DNA from: Advenella mimigardefordensis DPN7
Lineage (GTDB): Bacteria > Pseudomonadota > Gammaproteobacteria > Burkholderiales > Burkholderiaceae_B
Assembly (NCBI RefSeq): GCF_000521505.1
Contig: NZ_CP003915.1
Span: 1,302,001 to 1,366,000, forward strand
Reading direction: 5' to 3'
DNA length: 64,000 nucleotides
Shown in pieces: positions 9,636 through 25,214 of this stretch. Made by a program: the position numbers and the translations under genes. Each line of letters begins with the position of its first letter. The stretch's first letter is position 1. A model generated the notes under the pieces. It did no database searches, was not told the DNA's origin, and saw nothing but the letters and a program-made list of their open reading frames with translations.

Positions 9636-10322
9636 ATGACGTCTTTTCAGCTTGACGTATCGCTCCGTAAAAAACTGCAGCACCGGCACCATGGATTTAC
9701 GCTGGATGTGGCGTTTTCTGCGTCGGCCCGCCGCATCGTGATACAGGGCTCCTCGGGGGCGGGTAAGAGCATGACCTTGCGTGCCCTGGCAGGGCTGGTC
9801 GCGCCCGATGAAGGAAAAATCGTCCTTAATGATGACATCTTGTTCGATTCTGCGGCCGGCATCAGCATGTCGTCGCAGGAGAGGCAGGTTTCGTATCTGT
9901 TTCAGGATTACGCCCTGTTTCCCCATTTAACCGTGCGGCAGAACGTCGCATTCAGCCTGACCAAAGGGCTGTTCAATCCTGCACGCAATGCCTGGCGGGA
10001 AGAAACCGATTACTGGCTGGATAAAATGCATATGAGTGCGTACGCGGGTCGCTATCCGGAACAACTGTCGGGTGGCCAGAAGCAGCGCGTGGCGCTGGCC
10101 CGGGCGCTGGCCAGCCGTCCGCGCCTGTTGTTGCTGGACGAACCTTTCGCTGCGCTGGATACGCATTTGCGTCAGCATTTACGTCAGGAAATCAGTCAAT
10201 TGCAATCACAACTGCAATTTCCTCTCATTCTGGTGACTCACGATCCCAGTGATGTGGAAATCTTTGGCGATCTGGTGCTGCATGTGCATAATGGCAGTAT
10301 TCGGGAGCGGGAGACCGTATGA
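9636..10322 (+). CDS. modC: Molybdate ABC transporter ATPase ModC, short form without Mop domain
   Basis: Energises molybdate import. With ATG 9636 the protein has 228 residues: Walker A GSSGAGKS (38-45), Q-loop Q90, signature LSGGQ (144-148), Walker B LLLLDEP (164-170) and switch His H202. Earlier possible starts are ATG 9615 and TTG 9594; GCGGGAA just before 9636 favours the later one. E. coli ModC is about 350 residues because it carries a C-terminal molybdate-binding Mop domain; this one stops after the ATPase core. Its stop overlaps the modE start by four bases (ATGA), so the two are translationally coupled. Confidence 0.93.
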   Translation: MTSFQLDVSLRKKLQHRHHGFTLDVAFSASARRIVIQGSSGAGKSMTLRALAGLVAPDEGKIVLNDDILFDSAAGISMSSQERQVSYLFQDYALFPHLTVRQNVAFSLTKGLFNPARNAWREETDYWLDKMHMSAYAGRYPEQLSGGQKQRVALARALASRPRLLLLDEPFAALDTHLRQHLRQEISQLQSQLQFPLILVTHDPSDVEIFGDLVLHVHNGSIRERETV

Positions 10323-11218
10323 GCAAACAGGGTACGCATTCCATGGCAGGCGCTGCCGGCGCACGAATGGCAGGGGCTGAAAAAGCCGACATTACAAGCC
10401 CGGAAGACCCGCCGGGCGCTGCGGCGGGGCCATCAACTGGTTCAGGTCCGCGGCTGAATGTGCGTACGGCTATCGGTTTTGGTCTGGAACAGCATGAACT
10501 GGCCGATGAGCGCGATCTGCAATTGCTGGGCCATGTGCAGCGCCTGGGTTCCATTACCGCTGCGGCCAGGGCTGCCGGCGTTACTTATAAAACCGCCTGG
10601 GACCGCTTGCGTAATTTGCAGACGCGTCTTGGTCAGGCTGTGATTATCGCTGCTAAGGGTGGGCGTGGGGGGGGTAGAACCCAGCTCAGTGACAAGGGCC
10701 AGGCACTGCTGCACTATTATGAACAGCTGCGCAGGCAACAGGACCATGCAGTTGAACCCGATGTCGCGCTTGATGCCGTTGCCGATCTGGCGGCACGTCC
10801 CTTGCCCCTGAGAAAAACCAGCGCACGCAACCACCTGCAGGGCGTGGTTACGGCAATAGCACGTGGCGGTATTCGTGATGTTATCAGCGTTCAATTGCAC
10901 GAATCACTGCAACTGAGCGTCAATATTACACATGCCAGTACGCTGGCCCTGGGTTTGAAAAAAGGCGTGGCTGTTTACCTGCTCATCAAAGCGCCCGCAA
11001 TCCGTCTGGCTCAGCAGCAGGGCGCGCAGGCGAATGTGTTTTGCGGGCAAGTTCGCCGCAGTCGGCGGTTGCGCGATCAGCAGGAGCTTGAAGTTCAGAT
11101 TGCCCCCGATGTGCACGTGGTCACGATGGCGGGACAGAACCAGGCACAGCCCTTACGCAAGGGGGATGAGATTATGGTGCATATCGACCCCGACACGGTG
11201 ATTCTGGGCGTAGATTGA
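10319..11218 (+). CDS. modE: Molybdate-responsive regulator ModE with N-terminal extension and two Mop domains
   Basis: The 299-residue protein has a LysR-like winged helix (about 65-130; GSITAAARAAGVTYKTAWDRL at 77-97) and two C-terminal Mop/TOBE domains that bind molybdate (about 167-230, SARNHLQGVVTAIARGG; and about 238-299, ending DPDTVILGVD). In E. coli molybdate-bound ModE represses modABC. Unusual here is an Ala/Gly/Pro-rich N-terminal tail of about 45 residues before the helix-turn-helix. An internal start would remove it, but no better ATG with a clear ribosome binding site is seen and the present ATG overlaps the modC stop. The operator before modA makes autoregulation of the whole operon likely. 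Confidence 0.93.
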   Translation: MSKQGTHSMAGAAGARMAGAEKADITSPEDPPGAAAGPSTGSGPRLNVRTAIGFGLEQHELADERDLQLLGHVQRLGSITAAARAAGVTYKTAWDRLRNLQTRLGQAVIIAAKGGRGGGRTQLSDKGQALLHYYEQLRRQQDHAVEPDVALDAVADLAARPLPLRKTSARNHLQGVVTAIARGGIRDVISVQLHESLQLSVNITHASTLALGLKKGVAVYLLIKAPAIRLAQQQGAQANVFCGQVRRSRRLRDQQELEVQIAPDVHVVTMAGQNQAQPLRKGDEIMVHIDPDTVILGVD

Positions 11219-11349
11219 AAAGGCGGCGCGAATAAACAGGCGGCCCGTTTTTCCCGATTCGCCGTGTGCCGGCGGCGATACGGTCATCACAAATAAACCT
11301 GCCCGTCTACGCTTGCCGGAACAGAAAAGCATTACGGTACAGGAAAGCA

Positions 11350-12522
11350 TTATTTAGACAATTGCCGCATGGCTGCTTCAATACCCGTCATGGTGACCGG
11401 GTACATATGGTTCTGCATGATATTGCGAATGACATCAATGGATTGCCGATACTGCCAGTAGGCCTGAGGTTCAGGATTAAGCCAGACGGCCTTGGGCCAG
11501 GCATCCAGAATACGGGCCAGCCATACGGCGCCGGCTTCCTTGTTGTAATGTTCTACCGAGCCGCCGGGGTGTACGATCTCGTATGGGCTCATGGTCGCAT
11601 CGCCCACGAAAATGACACGCCAGTTGGTATTGTAGGTGCGCAGCAGTTCCCAGGTGTCGGTATAGACACGACGTCCGCCCGCGTCATAGCGCCAGAAACG
11701 CTCATAAGGGCAGTTGTGAAAATACCATACTTCGAGATTGCGAAACTCGCTGCGCGAGGCTGAAAATAGTTCCTCAACGCGTGCAATATGATCATCCATG
11801 CTCCCGCCGACGTCCAGCAGCATGAGTACATTGACCGCATTATGCCGTTCCGGCACCATCTTTACATCAAGAAAACCGGCGTTGCGCGCCGTGCTGCGAA
11901 TGGTATCGTCCAGATCCAGCTCTTCTGCGGCACCTTCGCGGGCAAAGCGGCGCAGGCGGCGCAGCGCTACCTTGAAGTTGCGTGTACCCAGTTCCTGTTG
12001 GTCGTCATATTCCCGAAAGCGCCGTTCTTCCCATACCTTGACCGCTGTCCGGTTGCCGGCAGACGGACCGCCAACGCGAATGCCCTCAGGGTGGTAGCCG
12101 CTATTGCCGAAAGGTGACGTACCGCCGGTGCCCACCCATTTACTGCCGCCGGCGTGACGTTCTTTTTGTTCCTGCAGGCGCTCCTTGAACATTTCCATGA
12201 GTTTGTCCCAGCCATGCTTTTCCAGCGCCGCTTTTTCTTCGGGCGTCAGGTTCTTCTGCATTTGACTGATCAGCCAGTCCAGCGGAATGTCGGGTCCGGC
12301 TGGCAGGGTGGCGGGCAGGTTTTTCACAAACAGGCCGAAGGCCTGGTCAAAGCGGTCGAACAGGGTTTCGTCCTTGACCAGCGTGAGGCGCGCAAGATGA
12401 TAGAAGTCGTCCAGGGACGGCGGCATGACGCGCTCGCGCAGGACTTCGAGCAGGGTCAGGTATTCCTTGACCGAGACCGGAATCTTGTGGTTTTTCAGGT
12501 GATAGAAAAAGTCGATGAACAT
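11350..12522 (-). CDS. VWA domain protein, CoxE-like
   Basis: The 390-residue protein belongs to the CoxE/VWA family found next to MoxR ATPases. The N-terminus (MFIDFFYHLKNHKIPVSV) is the usual start. A Lys/Glu-rich and Gly-rich middle (about 95-160) leads to a von Willebrand A domain with a MIDAS-type motif LLDVGGSMDDH (235-245). Such proteins act with MoxR AAA+ ATPases in metal insertion or maturation of enzyme complexes (as CoxDE does for CO dehydrogenase); the target here is unknown. It lies 33 bases after the moxR stop on the same strand, so the pair is one operon. It converges with modE. Confidence 0.9.
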   Translation of the reverse strand: MFIDFFYHLKNHKIPVSVKEYLTLLEVLRERVMPPSLDDFYHLARLTLVKDETLFDRFDQAFGLFVKNLPATLPAGPDIPLDWLISQMQKNLTPEEKAALEKHGWDKLMEMFKERLQEQKERHAGGSKWVGTGGTSPFGNSGYHPEGIRVGGPSAGNRTAVKVWEERRFREYDDQQELGTRNFKVALRRLRRFAREGAAEELDLDDTIRSTARNAGFLDVKMVPERHNAVNVLMLLDVGGSMDDHIARVEELFSASRSEFRNLEVWYFHNCPYERFWRYDAGGRRVYTDTWELLRTYNTNWRVIFVGDATMSPYEIVHPGGSVEHYNKEAGAVWLARILDAWPKAVWLNPEPQAYWQYRQSIDVIRNIMQNHMYPVTMTGIEAAMRQLSK

Positions 12523-12555
12523 GATGGCGTGTCACCCCGCAACCAGCGCGCCCGT

Positions 12556-13428
12556 TTAGCGCCGCGTCTGGCGGGCCAGGCCCGACAGGCGTTCCAGCAG
12601 GCTGATGTCCTGCTCGTTTTTGAGCAGCGCACCGGCCATCACGGGCACGGAGGTGGCCGCATGGGCGTCAATGCGCGCTGCGTCAATATCTTCAGCCAGC
12701 AACAGGGCCAGCCAGTCCAGAAACTCCGATGTAGATGGTTTTTTCTTCAGGCCCGGCGCATCACGCAGCATAAAAAAGTGATCCATTGCGGCGCGCAGAA
12801 TATCGGTTTTAACCTCCGGGTAGTGGACTTTGACGATTTCGCGCAGCGTATCTCGGTCGGGGAACTGGATGTAGTGGAAAAAGCAGCGACGTAAAAAGGC
12901 GTCGGGCAATTCCTTTTCATTGTTTGACGTAATAATGACCAGCGGACGATGGACGGCGCGAATGGTTTGGCCGGTTTCGTACACATGAAATTCCATCTGA
13001 TCCAGTTCGCGCAGCAGATCGTTGGGAAATTCGATATCGGCCTTGTCGATTTCATCAATCAGCACCACGGTAGGCACATCCGATTCGAAGGCACGCCACA
13101 ATACGCCCTTGCGGATGTAGTTGGCAATGTCGCGAACCCGTTCGTCACCCAGCTGGGAGTCGCGCAGGCGCGAGACCGCATCGTACTCGTACAGGCCCTG
13201 GTGCGCCTTGGTGGTGGATTTCACATGCCATTGCAGTAGAGGATAGCCCAGCGCTTCGGCCACTTCTTCGGCCAGCATGGTTTTACCCGTACCCGGCTCG
13301 CCTTTGATCAGCAATGGCCGCTGCAATGTGAGCGCGGCATTGACTGCAAGTTTGAGATCTTCGGTCGCAACATAACGTTCAGTGCCGGCAAAGCGGCTTG
13401 GATTCGATGTGGATTGGCTGGCTTTCAT
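12556..13428 (-). CDS. MoxR-family AAA+ ATPase
   Basis: 290 residues from ATG 13428 (an in-frame ATG at 13464 would add 12 residues; neither has a strong ribosome binding site). It has Walker A GEPGTGKT (about 43-50), Walker B VVLIDEIDKAD (DEID at about 125-128), sensor 1 ITSNNEKELPDAFLRRC with the arginine finger, and the family start RFAGTERYVATEDL. MoxR ATPases are chaperone-like and work with VWA proteins; the CoxE-like partner is directly downstream. Its 5' end faces two c-type cytochrome genes across about 160 bases, so maturation of a respiratory or redox complex is possible but not shown. Confidence 0.92.
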   Translation of the reverse strand: MKASQSTSNPSRFAGTERYVATEDLKLAVNAALTLQRPLLIKGEPGTGKTMLAEEVAEALGYPLLQWHVKSTTKAHQGLYEYDAVSRLRDSQLGDERVRDIANYIRKGVLWRAFESDVPTVVLIDEIDKADIEFPNDLLRELDQMEFHVYETGQTIRAVHRPLVIITSNNEKELPDAFLRRCFFHYIQFPDRDTLREIVKVHYPEVKTDILRAAMDHFFMLRDAPGLKKKPSTSEFLDWLALLLAEDIDAARIDAHAATSVPVMAGALLKNEQDISLLERLSGLARQTRR

Positions 13429-13591
13429 TTCAATTCTGCAACAAAATAGGGATGATTTGAGCATAAGAACTTCAATACTAACCTAATCTGGATCAATTAT
13501 GTCGTACAATCGGAAGCTTTAAAGCTGATCCGACCCGCTGGCAGTCTTGCGGTACGTTCATTATCGACATTCGCTAACAAAAGAGCAAAAT

Positions 13592-13945
13592 ATGAAGTTA
13601 TCCGCTTTCAAGCGCTCAGTTGCTGCGCTCGCCGTTGTGGTTCCCTGTGCCCTCTTTAGTCAGGCATTTGCCCAGCAGGCCGCTGCTCCTAAAGGAGACA
13701 TAGAGGCAGCCAAGGGTAAAATCTCTATGTGTATCGGCTGTCACGGCATTCCTGAATACCGCGCCAGCTTTCCCGAAGTTTATCGGGTTCCAAAGATTTC
13801 GGGCCAGAATGCGGATTACATCGTTGCTGCATTGAAAGAATACAAATCCGGTGCCCGCACATTCCCTTCCATGGTCGCGATCGCAAAAAGCCTGTCTGAT
13901 CAGGATATGCTGGATATTGCCGCCTATTTCTCTCAAGTAAAATAA
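13592..13945 (+). CDS. Small periplasmic c-type cytochrome (first of pair)
   Basis: 117 residues with a signal peptide (cleavage near AFAQ, residue 28), one haem site CIGCH (47-51) and a likely axial methionine M94 in TFPSMVAIA. It resembles class I cytochromes of the c553/c4 type. ATG 13592 follows AAGAGC and starts a good signal peptide; a longer open frame from 13547 is unlikely. The second cytochrome gene starts 13 bases after its stop. They are probably co-expressed electron carriers. Confidence 0.92.
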   Translation: MKLSAFKRSVAALAVVVPCALFSQAFAQQAAAPKGDIEAAKGKISMCIGCHGIPEYRASFPEVYRVPKISGQNADYIVAALKEYKSGARTFPSMVAIAKSLSDQDMLDIAAYFSQVK

Positions 13946-13958
13946 TCCGGGAACCGAT

Positions 13959-14327
13959 ATGAAACGCGTCTCTATTTTATTGTCAGGTGCTGTATGTGCA
14001 CTCGTGGGTATGGCATCTGCCCAGGCGGCAGATCTGGCTGCCGGCAAGGCAGCATTTGAGAAAAACGGTTGTGTGGCCTGTCACGGCGCCGCCGGCGACA
14101 AAACCATTGCGCCAATGTACCCGGTCCTGGCAGGTCAGCATGACGACTATCTGGTTCATGCATTGACTGCATACCAGCGTGGCATAAGCAATGCGCCTAA
14201 TTCGGCCAATATTCGCAAAAATCCGATTATGGGCAACGAAATCAAGAAACTGGGTGCCGCCGATATCGTTAATATCGCAGCATGGCTTTCTGCTCAGCCA
14301 GGCCCGCTGTCCCACAATCGCAAATAA
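13959..14327 (+). CDS. Small periplasmic c-type cytochrome (second of pair)
   Basis: 122 residues: signal peptide to about residue 24 (ASAQAA), haem-binding CVACH (38-42), likely axial methionine M91 in KNPIMGNEI, and the typical C-terminal helix DIVNIAAWLSAQ. It is a paralogue of the upstream cytochrome and is followed by a rho-independent terminator about 90 bases later. Specific partners cannot be read from the sequence. Confidence 0.93.
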   Translation: MKRVSILLSGAVCALVGMASAQAADLAAGKAAFEKNGCVACHGAAGDKTIAPMYPVLAGQHDDYLVHALTAYQRGISNAPNSANIRKNPIMGNEIKKLGAADIVNIAAWLSAQPGPLSHNRK

Positions 14328-14414
14328 TCAGCGCAGTCATGCCGTCATGACGATCGGCATATTGCACTTGTGCTAAGGGCAGTGCCGGCTATATGCTGGC
14401 GTAACCCGTAAAAG

Positions 14415-14442
14415 AACCGGACGAACTGTTCCGGTTTTTTTT
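14415..14442 (+). terminator. Rho-independent terminator after the cytochrome pair
   Basis: AACCGGA (14415-14421) / TCCGGTT (14430-14436) with an eight-base loop, followed by a T-run to 14442. Confidence 0.85.
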
Positions 14443-14559
14443 CGCCCTGACGGCGGGGGGGCAGGGAGGGTCGCTTTTGCGTTATGCAGTAGCGCAGTAG
14501 AGAAGTGCAGTAGAGAAGCGCTGTAGAGGGATCGGCTGCTTAGCCCTGCATCGGCCTGT

Positions 14560-14988
14560 TCAATGTCGGGTGGAGTGCTGGCGCAGCAGTTCCAGATAAT
14601 GATCGGTATCCAGCGGTTTGCCCAGGCGCTGTGATTCCCAGATGACCTGGCCCAGGCACTCCATGATTTCATGCATGGCGTGATGTTCATCCGTACGTGC
14701 AGCCAGTTGCTCGTAGATGCTGCGGATGCCTGGCGGATGGTCGATGGACACCTGTTCGTTGATGGCCAGATGCATAGATAAATGCAAAAACGGGTTGACC
14801 TGTCCTTTTTCTACCGAAAATTCCTGCTGGGCGGCATCCGGGTTTTCGAGTGCCTCATGATACTCCGGGTGCTGCAAAATCCAGGTGAGCGCCATGGACT
14901 CCATTGGCGTAAGGATTTTATGCTGACGATGTTTGGCCCAGGTTTCGGTAAAAAACTGGCGAACCTGATCGCGGGATGGATTGAACAT
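14560..14988 (-). CDS. DUF1841 family protein
   Basis: 142 residues, soluble and acidic, with the DUF1841 pattern: MFNPSRDQVRQFF at the start, NPFLHLSMHLAINEQ in the middle and HHAMHEIMECLGQVIWES near the end. The family is conserved in beta- and gammaproteobacteria and has no known function; the His-rich MHEIMEC stretch could bind a metal, which is speculation. ATG 14988 gives the family-typical N-terminus; the longer open frame up to 15093 has no support. It converges with the cytochrome pair and is divergent from the large synthetase gene. Confidence 0.85.
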   Translation of the reverse strand: MFNPSRDQVRQFFTETWAKHRQHKILTPMESMALTWILQHPEYHEALENPDAAQQEFSVEKGQVNPFLHLSMHLAINEQVSIDHPPGIRSIYEQLAARTDEHHAMHEIMECLGQVIWESQRLGKPLDTDHYLELLRQHSTRH

Positions 14989-15244
14989 ACAAATAGGGTA
15001 ATAAAAAAACGGTGTCGTACGAGCGCGCGGTGGTATGACAAAAAAATACACGATGAAACAGGCGGAAACAGGTGACGCAAGCGCGCCGACCATGCCGGAG
15101 GCTTTTTAAGTGGCCCGTCAGTTCTGATTCTTCATAATTGCTGTCACTTATTGATACCTCATCATACCATGGCTGTTCCATGGGTGGTCGCAAGATGGGG
15201 ACGGTTTTAATGCTATCTGATTGCCCAGGCGCAAGGAACCCTAC

Positions 15245-18200
15245 GTGTTTACTCCCCATCTGTCGATTTTGCGCGGACCCTGTATGCCGCAGTTCCTGCA
15301 GAACGAAACACTGGCCGATATTTTTGAAACCTCGGCAGCCACCTATCCTGACCATACCTGTCTTATTGACGGCCCGCTACGGCTTACGTATAGAGAAGTG
15401 AACGACAGGGCTGACCTCATGGCCCATCATTTGTTATCCGATGGCGTCGCCCCCGGTGACATCATCGGTTTGTGGCTCAGGCGCGGCAGCCAACTGCTGA
15501 TTGCGCAGCTGGCCATCACAAAAGCGGGGGCAGCCTGGCTTCCTTTTGATATAGACACCCCTCTGGAGCGTGTAGCGGTTTGTCTTGAAGATGCCGGTGC
15601 GCGCGGTATTATTACCGAGAAACAAGATACCGCTGCGGCTGTTGCGGGTAGGGCGATCGCACAGTGGCATCCCAAGGAACTGACTGTCCCGGCCAGCCAG
15701 CACATGCTGCGACGCCAGGGAGTGTTGCCATCTGACCCGGCCTATCTGATCTATACATCGGGATCCACAGGCAAGCCCAAAGGCATTGCGATTCGTCACG
15801 ACAATATCTGTCCGTTCCTGCGCAGCGAGAATCATATCCTGGGCATTGCGCATTTTGACCTTGTGTATCAGGGGTTTTCCGTCGCCTTTGATATGTCGTT
15901 TGAAGAAATCTGGATTGCCTGGCTGTCCGGTGCCAGCTTGTGGATTGCGCCCAAAGAGGTCGCCGCCGATCCGGTCGGACTGCCGGCTATCCTGCAGAAA
16001 TCCGGTGTGACGGTGCTGCACGCGGTACCAACGTTGCTGGCCATGTTTGCCGAGGTCCCGGAGAGCCTGCGGCTCATCAATATGGGCGGCGAAATGTGTC
16101 CGGATGCCCTGGTTGCCAAGCTGGATAATGGGCGTATTCGTCTTTTCAATACCTATGGTCCGACAGAAGCGACGGTCTCGGCGACGCTGGAGCAGTTGTC
16201 GATCCACAAGCCGGTGACCATTGGCACGCCGTTGCCCAATTACGGCCTGGCGGTGCTTGATGCGCAGCAGCAGTTGCTGCCAGTCAACGAAGTAGGAGAG
16301 CTGTGTATTTTTGGCCCTGGCGTCGCGCATGGCTATCTTGGGCGTGCCGATCTGACGGCAGAGAAGTTTCTGGACAACCCTTTTGCCGAAGGAGAGCAGG
16401 AGGCGCACCTGTATCGGACCGGTGACCTGGCGCGCATACTGCCGGGGGGAACCATTGAATGCCTGGGACGGGTGGACGATCAGATCAAGATCCGCGGCTT
16501 TCGGGTGGAGCTTGGTGAAATTGAAGCGGCGCTGGCCGAACAAACGGGCGTGGCAACGGCTGCTGTTCTGGTGTGTCCGATCGCGGGTGTGGATCAGTTG
16601 GTGGCGTGGATCGTGCCGGAGCCCGGACAGGAAAAACTACTCGCATCCAGTGCGAATCTGCGCAATATTCTGAAAACACGTCTGCCAGCCTATATGATCC
16701 CGGCTTTTTTTGAATACACCGACAGTGTGCCGCGTCTGGTATCCGGCAAAATTGATCGCAAATCTCTGGCGCAGATGCCCGTTCATACCTGGCCAGATGC
16801 CGGGCAGGAGTCGGACGAGCCCGAAAACGATGCGCAAAAAGCGTTGTTTGACATATTGCGTTCGCTCTTTCCCGGACAGGGTATCCACTTGCAGGCGGAT
16901 TTTTTCTCGGATATGGGTGGCCATTCTCTGCTGGCCGCGCAATTGGTATCGCGTGTTCGCGCAGTCCCCCGTTATGCAGCACTAACGGTACAGGATGTGT
17001 ATCAGAAGCGCAGCGTACAGGCCATCGCCGACTGCATGCAACGCGCCGATACGCAACAAACGGATGCACCATCACAAACGCTATTTTCACCGCCACCGGC
17101 CAATACCTGGCGGCGCCGGTTTGTATGTGGTCTGGCACAGTTTGCTGCCGTGCCATTTTTGATCACGCTGTCTATCATGCAGTGGCTTGCGCCGTTTTTT
17201 ACTTACCACAATCTCACAGGTGAAATGGCCGACAGCACCTGGTATGCCATCGGTATGTCATTTGTGGTTTTTATCGTGGTCTATCTGCTTAGCTTTGTAC
17301 TGGCTATTGTTGGCCGACAATTGCTGACCGCAGGGATCAGGCCGGGGCGTTACCCCTTGTGGGGAGTGACGTTTTTTCGGTGGTGGTTGTCAGATCGGCT
17401 GGCCAATGTGGCGCCGCTTTATCTGATTGCCGGCACGCGCATTTACGCTGCTTATTTACGCTGCATGGGCGCGCGTATCGGGCGCGAAGTCATGCTCAGT
17501 TCCATGACGGTTCGCGTGCCGTCCATGCTGACGATCGAGGACGGTGCCAGTGTTGGTGCTGATGTTCATATTGAAAATGCCCGGGTGCAGAACGGGGAAC
17601 TGGTGCTGGGAACCATTCATCTCGGGAAAAATGCTTACGTTGGCTCCTACTGTGTGCTGGAAGGCAATACCGCTATTGCCCAGGACGGCAGATTAAACGG
17701 CTTGTCGTCGCTTTACGACGGGCAGCACATTGGCGCCGGCCAGATCTGGGAGGGCTCGCCTTCGCGAATGATTGCCAGCCATACCCGTTCCAGCTTGCCG
17801 CCCCGGCCCGTACCCGGCGCGGGTCGTATTGCGTTTGAATGGCTTTTCTATTCGCTGGGCAGCCTGTTTATTGCTTTGCTTTTCTTCACGCCGCTGTTTC
17901 CGACCTTTATCTTCATCGATCTGGTGGATCCTAATTTTGATTATGACAATTTCCTGCTATCGGGAGTCAATTACTTCCTGATCGCTATTCCGGCATCTTT
18001 CGTGCTGATTCTGTTTACCGCGCTGCTCTCGGCGCTGGTACGCTGGCTGGCCTTGCCCAAAATGCAGCCAGGACGCTACTCGATCTATAGCTCGCTGTAT
18101 TATCGCAAATGGCTGATCAACCAGATTCAGGCGGCCAGCCTGCATACCCTGCATGGTGTGTATGCAACGGTTTTTGCCTCGTCCTGGTATCGTCTGCTGG

Positions 18201-19321
18201 GCGCCCGTATTGGTAAAAACGCCGAAATTTCAACCATCATGGGGGCGGCACCCAATATGCTTACGCTGGGCGATGATGCGTTTATTGCCGATGCTGTTAT
18301 GCTGGGGGATGACGAAGTGGATGGCGGCTGGATGACCATTCGCAATACGGTCATCGGCCACCGGAGCTTTATCGGTAATGGTGCCTATGTGCCTGATGGC
18401 ACCGTGGTCGCGCCCAACGTTCTGATCGGTGTGCAAACGCGGGCGCCCGAAAGCGAGCAGATGAAACCGGGAGACACCTGGTTCGGTTCCCCTCCTATCA
18501 TTCTGCCAGCCCGGGAAATGATGACCCGCTTCGACGAGCAATCCACCTTCCGACCCTCCATGAGACGCCGTCTGGGGCGGGCGTTTGTGGAATCGCTGCG
18601 GATTGTGTTGCCGATGTCATTTACTATTTGTGCCGGCTACCTGATTGTTTATGACGTGGTTCGGTATGAATCTATCGTTTCTGTCATGCAATCGGTGCCG
18701 GCGCTGATGCGCGATGGGTTGTGGTATGGGATCAGTTCCTTTGTTATGGTCGTGCTGCTCAAATGGCTTTTGCTGCGGCGCTATCGACCCACCTCCGCGC
18801 CCATGTGGTCGCTGTATGTCTGGGTCAGCGAGGCGATCACGAATGTCTATGAATCGATGGCCGTCTCTCACTTTCTTGATTATCTTCGGGGAACGGCCTT
18901 TTTGCCGCTATTGATGCGTGTGCTGGGGGCTCGTATCGGCAAAGGGGTGTATCTGGACACCACCGATATGACCGAGTTCGATTGTGTCCATATCGGCGAT
19001 TATGCCGAACTTAACGGTTTGTCCGGCCCGCAAACCCATTTGTTCGAGGATCGTGTCATGAAAATCGGGCAGGTACATATAGAGGACGGGGTCAATCTGC
19101 GGGCGCGCAGCACCATTCTGTATGGAAGTACGGTGGGGCAGGGCGCGCTGATCGGCCCTTTAACCACGGTGATGAAGGGTGAGTCGATTCCTGCGGGCAG
19201 CAGCTGGATTGGTTCACCGGCACAGAACTGGCAACAGCACCAGCAGCAGGCAAATAATGCCGCCACTGGCGGCACGCGTGAGCACAAGACAGAGCGGCAG
19301 GCGGAGGCCCTGGTTGGATGA
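15245..19321 (+). CDS. Single-module polyamino-acid synthetase of the Pls/PosA family (NRPS-like, membrane-bound)
   Basis: 1358 residues from GTG 15245 (AGGAA at 15234-15238; TTG 15221 and ATG 15284 are alternatives, but conserved LSILRGP lies before the ATG). Order: adenylation domain (about 20-505) with YTSGSTGKPKG (170-180), FDMSFEE (215-221), YGPTE (304-308), YRTGD (390-394) and the catalytic lysine K502 in SGKIDRK; carrier domain with GGHSL (phosphopantetheine serine S561); then six predicted membrane helices (about 633-652, 668-691, 864-888, 904-932, 1117-1137, 1156-1176) separating three related left-handed-helix/acyltransferase-like C domains. This is the layout of epsilon-poly-lysine synthetase (Pls) and delta-poly-ornithine synthetase (PosA), which polymerise one basic amino acid without a condensation or thioesterase domain. 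By eye the specificity positions read D-M-E-H-I-M-T-V-S-K; the glutamate (E220) suits a cationic side chain. The product is unknown. No phosphopantetheinyl transferase or polymer hydrolase lies nearby. Confidence 0.9.
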   Translation: MFTPHLSILRGPCMPQFLQNETLADIFETSAATYPDHTCLIDGPLRLTYREVNDRADLMAHHLLSDGVAPGDIIGLWLRRGSQLLIAQLAITKAGAAWLPFDIDTPLERVAVCLEDAGARGIITEKQDTAAAVAGRAIAQWHPKELTVPASQHMLRRQGVLPSDPAYLIYTSGSTGKPKGIAIRHDNICPFLRSENHILGIAHFDLVYQGFSVAFDMSFEEIWIAWLSGASLWIAPKEVAADPVGLPAILQKSGVTVLHAVPTLLAMFAEVPESLRLINMGGEMCPDALVAKLDNGRIRLFNTYGPTEATVSATLEQLSIHKPVTIGTPLPNYGLAVLDAQQQLLPVNEVGELCIFGPGVAHGYLGRADLTAEKFLDNPFAEGEQEAHLYRTGDLARILPGGTIECLGRVDDQIKIRGFRVELGEIEAALAEQTGVATAAVLVCPIAGVDQLVAWIVPEPGQEKLLASSANLRNILKTRLPAYMIPAFFEYTDSVPRLVSGKIDRKSLAQMPVHTWPDAGQESDEPENDAQKALFDILRSLFPGQGIHLQADFFSDMGGHSLLAAQLVSRVRAVPRYAALTVQDVYQKRSVQAIADCMQRADTQQTDAPSQTLFSPPPANTWRRRFVCGLAQFAAVPFLITLSIMQWLAPFFTYHNLTGEMADSTWYAIGMSFVVFIVVYLLSFVLAIVGRQLLTAGIRPGRYPLWGVTFFRWWLSDRLANVAPLYLIAGTRIYAAYLRCMGARIGREVMLSSMTVRVPSMLTIEDGASVGADVHIENARVQNGELVLGTIHLGKNAYVGSYCVLEGNTAIAQDGRLNGLSSLYDGQHIGAGQIWEGSPSRMIASHTRSSLPPRPVPGAGRIAFEWLFYSLGSLFIALLFFTPLFPTFIFIDLVDPNFDYDNFLLSGVNYFLIAIPASFVLILFTALLSALVRWLALPKMQPGRYSIYSSLYYRKWLINQIQAASLHTLHGVYATVFASSWYRLLGARIGKNAEISTIMGAAPNMLTLGDDAFIADAVMLGDDEVDGGWMTIRNTVIGHRSFIGNGAYVPDGTVVAPNVLIGVQTRAPESEQMKPGDTWFGSPPIILPAREMMTRFDEQSTFRPSMRRRLGRAFVESLRIVLPMSFTICAGYLIVYDVVRYESIVSVMQSVPALMRDGLWYGISSFVMVVLLKWLLLRRYRPTSAPMWSLYVWVSEAITNVYESMAVSHFLDYLRGTAFLPLLMRVLGARIGKGVYLDTTDMTEFDCVHIGDYAELNGLSGPQTHLFEDRVMKIGQVHIEDGVNLRARSTILYGSTVGQGALIGPLTTVMKGESIPAGSSWIGSPAQNWQQHQQQANNAATGGTREHKTERQAEALVG

Positions 19322-19408
19322 AAGAGGACGAAAGCGGGTCCATATCATATTTTGTTTGGACGTAGGGAATTTCCCCCGCAAAACAGCCGTTTTTCAGTTA
19401 AACTAATA

Positions 19409-19424
19409 AGTCTTATATAAGACT
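19409..19424 (+). promoter_or_regulatory. 16-bp perfect palindrome before icd, candidate operator
   Basis: AGTCTTATATAAGACT is fully self-complementary and lies 54 bases before the icd start codon. It overlaps an AT-rich stretch that could be a -10 region, so it probably controls icd transcription. The regulator is not in view. Confidence 0.6.
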
Positions 19425-19477
19425 CGTTTATCCAACGATTGTCTTCATGTTTTTTACTTGTGGGTTACGGAGCCAGC

Positions 19478-20734
19478 ATGTCTTACCAGCACATCAAAGT
19501 CCCTTCATCGGGCGAAAAAATCACGGTTAACGCCGACTTTTCTCTGAATGTTCCAGATCAGCCGATTGTTCCCTTTATCGAAGGTGACGGCACCGGTGCA
19601 GATATCACGCCTGTAATGCTCAAGGTGGTAGATGCTGCGGTCGAAAAAGCATACGGCGGTAAACGCAAAATTCACTGGATGGAAATCTACGCTGGTGAGA
19701 AATCCACAAAAGTATACGGTTCCGACGTCTGGCTGCCAGAAGAAACACTGGAAGCCGTTAAGGATTACGTTGTTTCTATCAAAGGCCCGCTGACGACACC
19801 GGTTGGTGGCGGTATCCGTTCACTGAACGTCGCGCTGCGTCAGCAACTGGACCTGTACGTCTGCCTGCGTCCTGTACGTTACTTCAAAGGTGTTCCTTCA
19901 CCTGTTCGTGAGCCAGAGAAAACCGATATGGTTATTTTCCGCGAGAACTCTGAAGACATCTACGCCGGTATCGAATTCGAAGCTGAATCTGACCAGGCCA
20001 AGAAACTGATCGCTTTCCTGCAGAACGAACTCGGTGTTAAAAAAATCCGTTTCCCTCAGACTTCCGGTATCGGTGTGAAACCTGTATCACGCGAAGGTAC
20101 GCAACGTCTGGTGCGCAAGGCTATTCAGTACGCAATCGACAACGACAAGCCAAGCGTGACCATCGTTCATAAAGGCAACATCATGAAGTTCACCGAAGGT
20201 GGCTTCCGTGACTGGGCCTACGAAGTGGCACAGAAAGAATTCGGCGCCGAGCTGATCGATGGCGGCCCATGGAGCAAAATCAAGAATCCACGTACAGGCA
20301 AGGAAATCATCATCAAGGATTCCATCGCCGACGCGTTCCTGCAGCAAATTCTGTTGCGCCCAGCCGAGTACTCTGTGATCGCTACATTGAACCTGAACGG
20401 TGACTATGTTTCCGACGCTCTGGCCGCTCAGGTGGGTGGTATTGGTATCGCTCCCGGTGCCAACCTGTCCGACTCTGTTGCCATGTTCGAAGCCACTCAC
20501 GGTACAGCGCCTAAATATGCAGGTAAAGATTACGTGAACCCAGGTTCAGAAATCCTGTCTGCAGAAATGATGCTGCGTCACATGGGCTGGACTGAAGCGG
20601 CTGATCTGATCATCTCTTCAATGGAAAAATCCATTCTGTCCAAAAAAGTGACTTATGACTTTGCCCGTCTGCTTGAGGGCGCAACTCAGGTGAGCTGCTC
20701 CGGCTTTGGTCAGGTTATGATCGAAAACATGTAA
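19478..20734 (+). CDS. icd: Isocitrate dehydrogenase (NADP+), E. coli type
   Basis: Oxidises isocitrate to 2-oxoglutarate in the TCA cycle. The 418-residue product has the type I signatures: [14 protein letters not shown], the substrate loop [16 protein letters not shown] (with the serine that AceK phosphorylates in E. coli), [13 protein letters not shown], and [25 protein letters not shown] 19478 has TACGGAG seven bases upstream; the open frame continues to 19439 without support. The gene is monocistronic: a palindrome lies upstream and a strong terminator follows the stop codon by 26 bases. Codon use is clearly that of a highly expressed gene compared with its neighbours. Confidence 0.98.
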
Positions 20735-20760
20735 TATGAACTAACGTATTCGTTGGTTTG

Positions 20761-20797
20761 AAAAACCCGCACGGTTTATATCATGCGGGTTTTTTTA
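20761..20797 (+). terminator. Rho-independent terminator after icd
   Basis: AACCCGCA (20764-20771) / TGCGGGTT (20784-20791), followed by a T-run. The A-run on the left side may let it also work for the converging Bug gene on the minus strand. Confidence 0.9.
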
Positions 20798-20830
20798 TAC
20801 CCGAAGCTGAATGGGTATGGAGCGCTGATG

Positions 20831-21826
20831 CTATTCCGGCTGAATGCCGGCCTTTTTTATCACCGCCGACCAGCGAGCCGCTTCTTTTTCAAAGAATGCC
20901 TTGTGGCCCTCGGGCGATAGCCTGTCGTCATTCACAATTGAAATTCCCAATGCTTCCTGGCGCTTGATCAGCTCGGGGTTTTTCAGTGCGATACGCAGCG
21001 CGGCGTTGATCTTGTCTACCACTGGTTTCGGTGTGCCCTTGGGCGCATACAGCCCATGCCAGACGCTGAAATTGAAACCCGACAGCCCCGCTTCGTCCAG
21101 CGTTGGCACCGACGCCAGGGTAGGGAGGTTCATGCGTTTCATGCTGCTCACGCCATACACTCTGACCTTTTTGCTTTCTATTTGAGGAATGCTGTTGGTT
21201 GCCTGTTCGCACATGATATCGATTTGCCCACCCATCAGGTCGGTCATTGCCGGGGCAGTGCCTTTGTAGGGAACAAAAGTCATGTGGCTGTTCAGTTCGC
21301 TTTGCAGCATCAGGCTGCACAGATGCGATGCGGAACCAACACCCGCATTGGCCAGATTGATGGCATTATCTTTCTCAGCGATGTATTGTTTCAGTTGCGC
21401 AAAATCGTTGGCGGCTAAGCCGGGTTTGCCAATCAATGTCGATGGGGCCTCGTTGATCAGACCCAGAAACTCAAGATCGTCTATCTTGTAACCGGGATCT
21501 TTGTATAGCGCGTGTGCGGTAGCCAGCCCTATGTGATGGACCAGTAATGTATAGCCGTCATTTTTGGCTCTGGCAACCCGGGCCGTACCAATCGTGCCGC
21601 CTGCACCAAGGCGGTTTTCGATCACGATAGGTTGCCCCATAGGTTCCCGCAGTGCCTCGGCAACATCGCGTGCAATTTTATCGGAAGGCCCGCCTGCCGA
21701 GAATGGCACCACAATCGTGATACTTTTTTCGGGATACGCTGCCAGAGCGGTCGTGCTTGCGGTTGCGGTAAACAAGCCCGCCAGCAGGGTGAAGCCGAAT
21801 TTGATTCGTGTTGCAGGGTTATGCAT
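20831..21826 (-). CDS. Bug-family (TctC-type) periplasmic solute receptor, tartrate cluster
   Basis: 331 residues with a signal peptide (to about residue 29, TALAAYPEKSI). Bug hallmarks: PEKSITIVVPFSAGGPSDKIARDV at the mature N-terminus (in two conserved pieces), VIENRLGAGGTIGTARVA, and VPYKGTAPAMTDLMGGQID. Bug proteins bind carboxylates with two structural waters and feed tripartite tricarboxylate transporters. It lies 40 bases downstream of the D-tartrate dehydratase gene on the same strand, so tartrate or a related hydroxy acid is the likely ligand (inference). No TctA or TctB gene is present, as for most orphan Bug genes. Confidence 0.9.
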   Translation of the reverse strand: MHNPATRIKFGFTLLAGLFTATASTTALAAYPEKSITIVVPFSAGGPSDKIARDVAEALREPMGQPIVIENRLGAGGTIGTARVARAKNDGYTLLVHHIGLATAHALYKDPGYKIDDLEFLGLINEAPSTLIGKPGLAANDFAQLKQYIAEKDNAINLANAGVGSASHLCSLMLQSELNSHMTFVPYKGTAPAMTDLMGGQIDIMCEQATNSIPQIESKKVRVYGVSSMKRMNLPTLASVPTLDEAGLSGFNFSVWHGLYAPKGTPKPVVDKINAALRIALKNPELIKRQEALGISIVNDDRLSPEGHKAFFEKEAARWSAVIKKAGIQPE

Positions 21827-21866
21827 TGTGCTGTCTCCTCTCTATCGTTATGGGGGGTGCTGCGCG

Positions 21867-23033
21867 TTACGCTGATAATTGCTGCATGACCTGATACAGG
21901 TCAGCCTTGCCTTCGAAGCCGATGCCCGGCAGATCCGGCATAGTGATGAAGCCGTGCTCCACTTTCACGGTATCGGGGAAGCCGCCGAAAGGCTGGAAGA
22001 GATCGGGGTAGGATTCGTTGCCACCCAGACCCAGGCCCGCGGCAATATTCAATGACATCTGGTGGCCGCCATGCGGGATGCAGCGTGCGCGCGACCAGCC
22101 ATGTTCATGCAGCATCTCCAGAGTGCGCAGGTATTCAACCAGGCCGTAACTCAGCGCACAATCGAATTGCAGCCAGTCGCGGTCGGCACGCATGCCGCCG
22201 TAGCGAATCAGGTTGCGCGCATCCTGCATGGAGAACAGGTCCTCACCGGTGGCCATGGGGTTTGGATAGTAATTTCGTAGTGCCGCCTGCAGTTCAAAAT
22301 CCAGTGGATCGCCGGGCTCCTCGTACCAGAACAGATCGTACTGGCTCAGGGCCTTTGCGTAAGCGATGGCAGTGTCCAAATCAAACCGGCCGTTTGCGTC
22401 TACCGCCAGTTTTTGCCCGTCCTGCAGCACACTCAGAATGGAGTCGATCCGGCGCAGGTCCTCATCCAGCGAGGCACCGCCGATTTTTTTCTTGACCACG
22501 GTGTAGCCGCGATCAATATAGCTGCGCATTTCATCCTTGAGTTTTTCATGATCCTGGCCTGGGTAATAATACCCACCTGCCGCGTACACAAAAACCCGAC
22601 GGTCCGGCTGCCCGTTGCCATAGCGATCAGCCAGCAACTGGAACAGCGGTTTACCTTCTATTTTTGCAACGGCATCCCAAATGGCCATGTCGATCGTGCC
22701 GATGGCCACAGAGCGTTCACCATGTCCGCCTGGCTTTTCGTTCGAGAACATGGTGGCCCAGATTTTATGCGGGTCCAGGTTGTTGCCCGAATCATCGATC
22801 AGCGTAGCCGGGTCAGCCTGCATAATCCTGGGGATAAAGCGCTCCCGCATCAGCGTGCCCTGGCCGTATCGGCCATTGGAGTTGAAGCCGTAGCCGACAA
22901 CCGGCTTGCCATCACGAATTACATCTGTGATTACCGCGACGAGACTGAGCGTCATTTTGGAAAAATCAATATAGGCATTTCGAATAGGCGAACTGATGGG
23001 CAGTGTTTTTTCGCGAATTTCAACGATTTTCAT
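21867..23033 (-). CDS. tarD: D(-)-tartrate dehydratase, enolase superfamily
   Basis: 388 residues, very like the Bradyrhizobium D-tartrate dehydratase I recall: ISSPIRNAYIDFSKMT near the N-terminus, EKPGGHGERSVA, the catalytic lysine region VVKKKIGG (K181-K183), metal ligands D212, E238/E239 and E264 (VDANGRFD, WYEEPGD, ATGEDLF), and the catalytic histidine in CIPHGGHQMSLN (H321). It dehydrates D-tartrate to oxaloacetate with Mg2+. The alternative is another acid-sugar dehydratase of the mandelate racemase subgroup, but the match over the whole length favours tartrate. It is the first gene of a two-gene operon with a Bug receptor and is divergent from a LysR regulator. Confidence 0.88.
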   Translation of the reverse strand: MKIVEIREKTLPISSPIRNAYIDFSKMTLSLVAVITDVIRDGKPVVGYGFNSNGRYGQGTLMRERFIPRIMQADPATLIDDSGNNLDPHKIWATMFSNEKPGGHGERSVAIGTIDMAIWDAVAKIEGKPLFQLLADRYGNGQPDRRVFVYAAGGYYYPGQDHEKLKDEMRSYIDRGYTVVKKKIGGASLDEDLRRIDSILSVLQDGQKLAVDANGRFDLDTAIAYAKALSQYDLFWYEEPGDPLDFELQAALRNYYPNPMATGEDLFSMQDARNLIRYGGMRADRDWLQFDCALSYGLVEYLRTLEMLHEHGWSRARCIPHGGHQMSLNIAAGLGLGGNESYPDLFQPFGGFPDTVKVEHGFITMPDLPGIGFEGKADLYQVMQQLSA

Positions 23034-24080: not shown

Positions 24081-24184
24081 TCGCCTTTATTTATTCGCAC
24101 ATTGTGACCTTGCCACTCGCTTTACGGGGTGTCGCAGGGTATTCGTCATTGCGCGTCAATCTTGCTTATAGGTGTTGTCTATTA

Positions 24185-24217
24185 TTGTATTCTGTTGTAT
24201 TCAATAGTATATTTAAA
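24185..24217 (+). promoter_or_regulatory. Candidate GntR operator before the tricarballylate-cluster Bug gene
   Basis: Two direct copies of TTGTATTC (24185-24192, 24195-24202) run into ATTCAATAGTATATTTAAA (24199-24217). The last 19 bases recur with three mismatches upstream of tcuA (26028-26046). The site lies just upstream of the AGGAGA ribosome binding site, in the promoter region. Confidence 0.55.
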
Positions 24218-24245
24218 CGGAATTTCAATCTCAGGAGACGATCCC

Positions 24246-25214
24246 ATGACTTTTTTTAAACCCTGTATGCTCGCGGTCCTGTTGGCCGCGAGTCCGCTAA
24301 CCGTGCACGCAGCTTATCCCGATCAGCCTATCCGTCTGGTTGTCCCGCATCCTGCCGGTGGTTCTTCGGATATTCTGGCCAGAACCATGGCGGCTGCCAT
24401 GTCAAAAGATCTGGGGCAATCCATCGTTGTAGAAAATAAAGGGGGTGGCAATGGTGCGATTGCTGCACAGACGGTGGCCAATGCCAAACCCGACGGCTAT
24501 ACCTTATTGCTGGCAACAGCCAGTACCCATGGCATTAATCCCACCTTGTACCGGAAACTGAACTACGACGCCATCAAGGATTTCGCGCCGGTCACGCTGT
24601 TTGCCACCGTGCCCAACGTACTGGTGGTGGGAGCTGCGCACAAGCAGATGAACAGTCTTAAGGACCTGCTTCAATTTATGAAGGACAATCCCGGCAAAAC
24701 CAATATGGGCTCGGCCGGTAGCGGTACGCCCGGTCATCTGGCCGGCGTCATGCTTAAGGATGCGGAGCATCTGGATCTGGTGCATGTGCCGTTCAAGGGT
24801 GGTGCGCCGGTGATCAGTGCACTGATCGGCGGGCAGATTGATTTCATGTTTACCACCATCCCCGGGGCGATCAGTCACATCAAGGCCGGGTCCATCAAAG
24901 GCCTTGCCGTATCGTCGGCCGAACGCTCCGATGCATTGCCTGAGTTGCCCACGGTTGCTGAAGCGGGCGTGCCTGGATTTGAAGCCGTTTCCTGGCATGG
25001 TCTGGTAGCACCTGCCAAAACGCCGCAACCGGTGATCGATGCTCTGTATCAGGCCGCCAGCAAGGCGCTGAACAGCGAGGATGTCAAAAGCAAGCTGGCG
25101 AACGAAGGGGCCAGGGCCGCCAAAATGACACCGGATGAATTCGGCGCTTTTATTCAGGCGCAAATCAACGCCTGGGGTGCGGCGGTCAAATCATCGGGCG
25201 CGCGTGCAGACTGA
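24246..25214 (+). CDS. Bug-family periplasmic solute receptor, tricarballylate cluster
   Basis: 322 residues from ATG 24246, with CAGGAGA at 24232-24238. Signal peptide to about residue 20 (TVHAAYPDQP), then PIRLVVPHPAGGSSDILAR, VVENKGGGNGAIAAQ and VPFKGGAPVISALIGGQID, all Bug signatures. It abuts, tail to tail without a spacer, the GntR regulator gene, and shares a promoter motif with tcuA, which implies a citrate-like tricarboxylate such as tricarballylate as ligand (inference). In Salmonella the equivalent uptake role is played by the MFS protein TcuC, absent here. Confidence 0.9.
   Translation: MTFFKPCMLAVLLAASPLTVHAAYPDQPIRLVVPHPAGGSSDILARTMAAAMSKDLGQSIVVENKGGGNGAIAAQTVANAKPDGYTLLLATASTHGINPTLYRKLNYDAIKDFAPVTLFATVPNVLVVGAAHKQMNSLKDLLQFMKDNPGKTNMGSAGSGTPGHLAGVMLKDAEHLDLVHVPFKGGAPVISALIGGQIDFMFTTIPGAISHIKAGSIKGLAVSSAERSDALPELPTVAEAGVPGFEAVSWHGLVAPAKTPQPVIDALYQAASKALNSEDVKSKLANEGARAAKMTPDEFGAFIQAQINAWGAAVKSSGARAD

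Follow-up and report, generated by a model that had tools for sequence, protein, structure and literature searches.

Among enzymes of the Pls/PosA family, PosA of Acinetobacter baumannii is known to make delta-poly-L-ornithine: ornithine is its best substrate, and the purified enzyme forms delta-linked 7-12-mers in vitro (PMC10522769). In PosA structures, ornithine is contacted by Asp217, Met218, Glu221, Thr304, and Ser313; mutants of the pocket show Asp217 and Glu221 to be essential and Ser313 and Thr304 to be important, Met218 bears on chain length, and the published 10-residue code is DMEHNGTVSK (PMC10522769). We compare with this enzyme a posA-like gene, here called posA, in a 64,000-nucleotide stretch of the Advenella mimigardefordensis DPN7 genome (NZ_CP003915.1, positions 1,302,001 to 1,366,000; hereafter the window). 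Sequence comparison makes it highly probable that the gene encodes a Pls/PosA-family enzyme of the PosA type, with delta-poly-L-ornithine as its most likely product. It would be one more case of an established kind of enzyme and not a new kind, with a product that is predictable because the gene closely resembles one whose enzyme has been shown to polymerize ornithine; the candidate need not, then, count as a new polymer.

The gene and its domains, with the basis of each assignment in brackets, are as follows.

15233 to 15238, plus strand: AAGGAA, which probably serves the GTG start as ribosome-binding site (sequence inspection)
15245 to 19321, plus strand: posA-like gene, 1358 amino acids, predicted delta-poly-L-ornithine synthetase (TIGR02353, 693.7 bits; 701 of 1333 identities to PosA P0104)
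15245 to 16774, plus strand: adenylation domain, about residues 1 to 510 (PosA A-domain chain 8g95, 488.4 bits)
16817 to 17044, plus strand: carrier domain, about residues 525 to 600 (PF00550, 25.3 bits)
17117 to 19231, plus strand: C-terminal membrane domain, in which each of three helix pairs precedes a repeat (C1, C2, C3) with predicted beta-helix strands

The longest open version of the open reading frame (ORF) runs from a TTG at 15221 to 19321, and the GTG at 15245, which gives the 1358-amino-acid protein, looks to be the better start. The initial annotation had described one adenylation (A) domain, a carrier domain with Ser561, six membrane helices, and three tandem C repeats, and this architecture is borne out by NCBIfam, Pfam, and hydropathy. 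The protein exceeds the cut-offs of TIGR02353, "Pls/PosA family" (693.7 bits against 423.1), and of the adenylation model TIGR01733 (401.6 bits against 317.4), and among 27 matches in the genome it alone lies above the nonribosomal peptide synthetase adenylation cut-off. At E <= 0.001 it matches six Pfam families, including AMP-binding, AMP-binding_C, PP-binding, and Hexapep, and none of the six is a condensation or thioesterase family, as the initial annotation had also held. The carrier has a GGxS-type serine, with phosphopantetheine attachment predicted at Ser561 within GGHSLLA. A Kyte-Doolittle scan places hydrophobic stretches in three pairs (about residues 625-653/661-698, 862-896/902-940, and 1117-1139/1158-1177), and the helices of an AlphaFold2 model agree with six membrane helices whose three pairs separate the three tandem repeats. 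A further hydrophobic stretch at 435-459, within the A domain, is taken as soluble core and not as a membrane helix.

Likeness to PosA extends through nearly the whole protein, with 53% identity and 72% similarity over 1333 aligned positions; by region, identity is 58% in the A domain, 51% in the carrier, and 51% in the C-terminal domain. When the A core was compared with structures in the PDB, the best match was PosA (8g95, 488.4 bits), and the epsilon-poly-lysine synthetase 7wew scored 198.9 bits. The pocket residues are D216, M217, E220, H259, T303, V311, and S312, plus K502 within SGKIDRK, and the five residues that contact ornithine in PosA are all kept, as D216, M217, E220, T303, and S312. 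Comparison of the A-domain specificity residues in the register of PMC10522769 gives the Advenella protein the code DMEHNGTVSK, identical to that of the ornithine-activating PosA. With this code and the 53% identity to a known delta-poly-L-ornithine synthetase, the "unknown product" of the initial annotation is no longer supported; its view that a glutamate-bearing pocket fits a basic diamino acid is, and E220 is the counterpart of PosA Glu221. The code that it had read, DMEHIMTVSK, was reproduced by alignment in what we take to be the PheA register, where PosA reads DMEHILTVSK, and the published PosA register is one residue off this one at positions 5 and 6.

The same code is common among relatives. 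At least 8000 candidate proteins were scored and at least 7956 passed; codes read in the 120 matches listed, PosA included, were DMEHNGTVSK (103), DMEHNGSVSK (13), and DMEHNGTVTK (4). Across 80 genome loci the corresponding counts were 74 for DMEHNGTVSK, 4 for DMEHNGTVTK, and 2 for DMEHNGSVSK, a uniformity that is biased because the peptide patterns used in that search included pocket residues (DMSFEEIW). Loci found through a C-terminal model, a search free of this bias, also carried the codes DLED.., DFEA.., DFEC.., DAES.., DVEA.., and DSECYGGVTK, the last being the Bdellovibrionales code (PMC10522769). In an unrooted FastTree phylogeny of 50 sequences, the Advenella protein, PosA, and PosA-coded sequences are split with support 1.000 from the DLED.., DFEA.., DAES.., DVEA.., and DSECYG.. 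sequences. Domains, pocket, and side of the family tree are all as in PosA, which would favor ornithine as the monomer.

An enzyme of the same family might instead use another diamino acid, 2,4-diaminobutyrate (Dab) or lysine, and make gamma-poly-Dab or epsilon-poly-Lys, although we consider this unlikely. A domains for basic amino acids have overlapping codes, and a Dab-activating domain of syringomycin synthetase has most of the code residues found here, which speaks for such a monomer. PosA itself is weakly active with lysine and Dab, but the chain-length position of the Advenella protein is Met, as in PosA, whereas Pls has Ala and the poly-diaminopropionate and poly-diaminobutyrate enzymes have Phe (PMC10522769). 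The tree, moreover, groups the protein with PosA and away from the DAES.. and DFEA.. sequences.

For ornithine polymerization, the following course may be proposed. A phosphopantetheinyl transferase (PPTase) encoded elsewhere would arm Ser561. The A domain would bind L-ornithine by both amines (the alpha-amine through the first Asp, the delta-amine through Glu, Thr, and Ser), form ornithyl-adenosine monophosphate, and then load the carrier. In the C-terminal membrane domain, the delta-amine could attack the ornithyl thioester repeatedly to give an isopeptide-linked chain, whose exit, perhaps at the membrane, would need no thioesterase.

Both in sequence and in the model, the C-terminal repeats are similar to hexapeptide acyltransferases, a class with a left-handed beta-helix fold, and a Foldseek-derived list excludes no fold family. 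A reading of the three repeats as condensation domains was rejected, since they have no Pfam match of that kind and look like beta-helices. As hexapeptide acyltransferases normally acylate one acceptor, it is conceivable that a basic amino acid is activated and no homopolymer is made, one residue or a short chain being passed to another membrane acceptor. We regard this as very improbable: PosA, whose C-terminal domain is 51% identical, makes 7-12-mers as a purified enzyme (PMC10522769), and Pfam recognized an acceptor-pathway gene in none of nine neighboring ORFs.

We found no active site named for the polymerization step in PMC10522769. In the Advenella protein, one candidate region stands out.

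18974 to 19183, plus strand: cluster of polar C3 residues that are invariant across the family, E1244, D1252, Q1263, H1265, E1268, K1273, Y1293, K1311, and E1313 (each with at least 96% identity over 49 rows)

With the C1, C2, and C3 boundaries set by hand, the 49 family sequences have 10 near-invariant polar positions in C3, 4 in C2, and 2 in C1; about half of the rows are PosA-coded, some are near-duplicates, one is gapped through much of C3, and L143, which has an internal stop, was omitted. Because the third repeat has the most family-invariant polar residues, it is a candidate polymerizing centre.

A carrier domain requires a PPTase. The initial annotation had proposed that the enzyme makes and releases its chain alone, which is plausible for polymerization at a single-gene locus but does not extend to carrier activation, for which candidates lie elsewhere in the genome. 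There are two PPTase-family matches, a 161-amino-acid, AcpS-sized frame (L083) and a 273-amino-acid protein (L084). The latter, at G000:C1:4659427-4659651, is far from posA and adjoins a ketoacyl-synthase ORF, in surroundings that we presume may possibly be an aryl-polyene-type cluster; it lies above a Pfam cut-off and above no NCBIfam cut-off. That the genome encodes this second PPTase-superfamily member in addition to the AcpS-sized one is consistent with PosA-type function. In other Betaproteobacteria, PPTase-like ORFs stand beside the synthetase gene itself, among them the following.

L063, 5453 to 6064: PPTase-like ORF beside a posA-type gene
L058, 11985 to 12518: PPTase-like ORF beside a posA-type gene
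L039, 11592 to 12323: PPTase-like ORF beside a posA-type gene
L022, 7553 to 8119: PPTase-like ORF beside a posA-type gene
L033, 2810 to 3514: PPTase-like ORF beside a posA-type gene

An ORF similar to the PPTase-like neighbor in Herminiimonas occurs in 15 of the 80 related loci, on the same strand and no more than about 120 bp from the synthetase; when nine of these 15 were searched with Pfam, five scored above the PPTase-superfamily cut-off, one scored below it, and three had no match. To cover partner genes more widely, 2012 flanking ORFs (at least 120 codons, within 5 kb) of the 80 loci were clustered and the 14 largest clusters considered. Close linkage that spans several genera is seen for the PPTase-like cluster only (13 loci with 8 labels, gaps of -24 to +119 bp). 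Janthinobacterium has members of a LysR cluster (14 ORFs) near the synthetase gene, and four Collimonas loci have members of a GGDEF-EAL cluster (10 ORFs) there, both clusters lying at mostly scattered distances elsewhere; in those Collimonas loci (L043, L047, L050, and L069), the GGDEF-EAL gene is on the opposite strand, 238-411 bp upstream of the synthetase, with the Pfam assignment made in L047 alone. Stand-alone and PPTase-linked arrangements both exist, since A. baumannii posA is a single-gene operon (PMC10522769).

We tentatively suggest, at somewhat less than even likelihood, that a single centre in C3 polymerizes and that the PPTase-like ORFs beside posA elsewhere in Betaproteobacteria are dedicated activators, replaced in Advenella by a PPTase acting in trans. 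With a single C3 centre, the role of C1 and C2 would be mostly structural, as they have 2 and 4 near-invariant polar positions against 10 in C3. The invariant C3 residues and the linked PPTase-like ORFs offer testable handles on how the membrane domain joins monomers, a question left open in PMC10522769.

The gene occupies a site that is filled in some Advenella genomes and empty in others, between two flanking genes.

14560 to 15093, minus strand: DUF1841 gene, flanking the present/absent site on the left (PF08897, 186.4 bits)
19475 to 20734, plus strand: isocitrate dehydrogenase gene (icd), flanking the present/absent site on the right (PF00180, 302.1 bits)

Advenella belongs to the Alcaligenaceae, Betaproteobacteria, and the genome analyzed here has 4,764,126 bases in two contigs; for A. 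mimigardefordensis, gene deletion by means of sacB has been described (PMC5373536). posA lies between DUF1841 and icd in three of nine Advenella genomes, the window's own and two others, and the flanks adjoin without it in six; a tenth genome, G009, has no clear icd match and stood outside this comparison. By the measure used, the DUF1841-icd distance is 206-440 bp in the six empty genomes and 4475-4523 bp in those with posA. Searches with the whole gene (tblastn and blastn, 1e-3) found no posA remnant in the six empty stretches and matched both other posA-bearing genomes near full length. The empty sites of G008 and G004 are similar to the window from about 19340 onward, roughly 20 bp past the posA stop, and that of G007 is similar from about 19376, roughly 55 bp past it. 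A tree built from six flanking genes groups the posA-bearing G003 with the posA-lacking G008 and G004 (support 94), so that presence of the gene is patchy. Such a pattern would arise if the gene had been lost repeatedly, or gained repeatedly at one site, and loss is favored because the Advenella posA genes form one group in the tree. Recent foreign insertion, considered from composition, is unsupported by total GC content (0.561 in posA, 0.545 in the window); at third codon positions, GC content reaches 0.628 in posA against 0.55 in icd. In a plasmid collection, 130 records match partially by distant blastn, and none covers 80% of the gene. Separately, in locus L134 of G004, the icd, cytochrome c, AAA ATPase, and VWA genes each match in separate pieces; as this affects four genes in G004 alone, it suggests base-calling errors and not real pseudogenes.

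Around posA, Pfam searches of nine neighboring ORFs (10322-23033) found no peptide hydrolase, PPTase, or exporter, with one ORF lacking any match, in agreement with the initial annotation. Nearby, at 20831-21826 and 24129-25214, are two genes for tripartite tricarboxylate transporter receptors (PF03401, TctC). A terminator scan gave a single weak terminator-like site, on the minus strand within the 3' end of posA.

Several observations weigh against the reading as a delta-poly-L-ornithine synthetase. Our literature search, which left subscription literature largely outside its scope, found no product characterized from this or any betaproteobacterium. The gene is dispensable, as it is absent from the site in six of nine Advenella genomes, and a sigma-70 promoter scan found no promoter-like site just upstream of posA, near its start, or near its end. 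The protein has M where PosA has L in the PheA register, at a near-pocket position absent from the contacts in PMC10522769. The code is also an imperfect marker, as L157 (36% identical), from beyond the tree split, has DMEHNGTVTK.

The nearest named relatives are Advenella incenata (88% identity, best segment) and A. kashmirensis (80%). Scores above the cut-off of the C-terminal family were obtained for 3 of 10 genomes sampled from the genus, 10 of 151 sampled from the family, 6 of 274 from the class, and 24 of 299 from the phylum, each sample including the window's own genome. Outside Advenella, the family sample has seven carriers, and all of them show the PosA code. posA-type genes were found in many betaproteobacterial genera. 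The suggestion that such a polymer would be new for a betaproteobacterium stands as regards characterized products in the literature searched but not as regards the type of gene. These results support PosA-type synthetases in many Betaproteobacteria and, in Advenella, a stand-alone, dispensable gene.

Placed among known systems, the Advenella protein is closest to A. baumannii PosA (8G95-8G98), with which it shares 53% identity near full length, domain order, the five contact residues, the code, and a single-gene locus; it differs in the near-pocket M for L, in its host, and in having a product that is predicted. With Pls, the epsilon-poly-L-lysine synthetase of Streptomyces albulus (7WEW), it shares the A-carrier-membrane architecture, six helices, and three tandem repeats (PMC10522769; PMC8117764), whereas the A-core score is lower for Pls (198.9 against 488.4 bits for PosA), which has Ala at the chain-length position (PMC10522769). 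Poly-diaminobutyrate and poly-diaminopropionate synthetases belong to the same family and have the same architecture (PMC10522769; PMC8117764), but their chain-length residue is Phe (PMC10522769), and DFEA..-coded members lie beyond the split from PosA.

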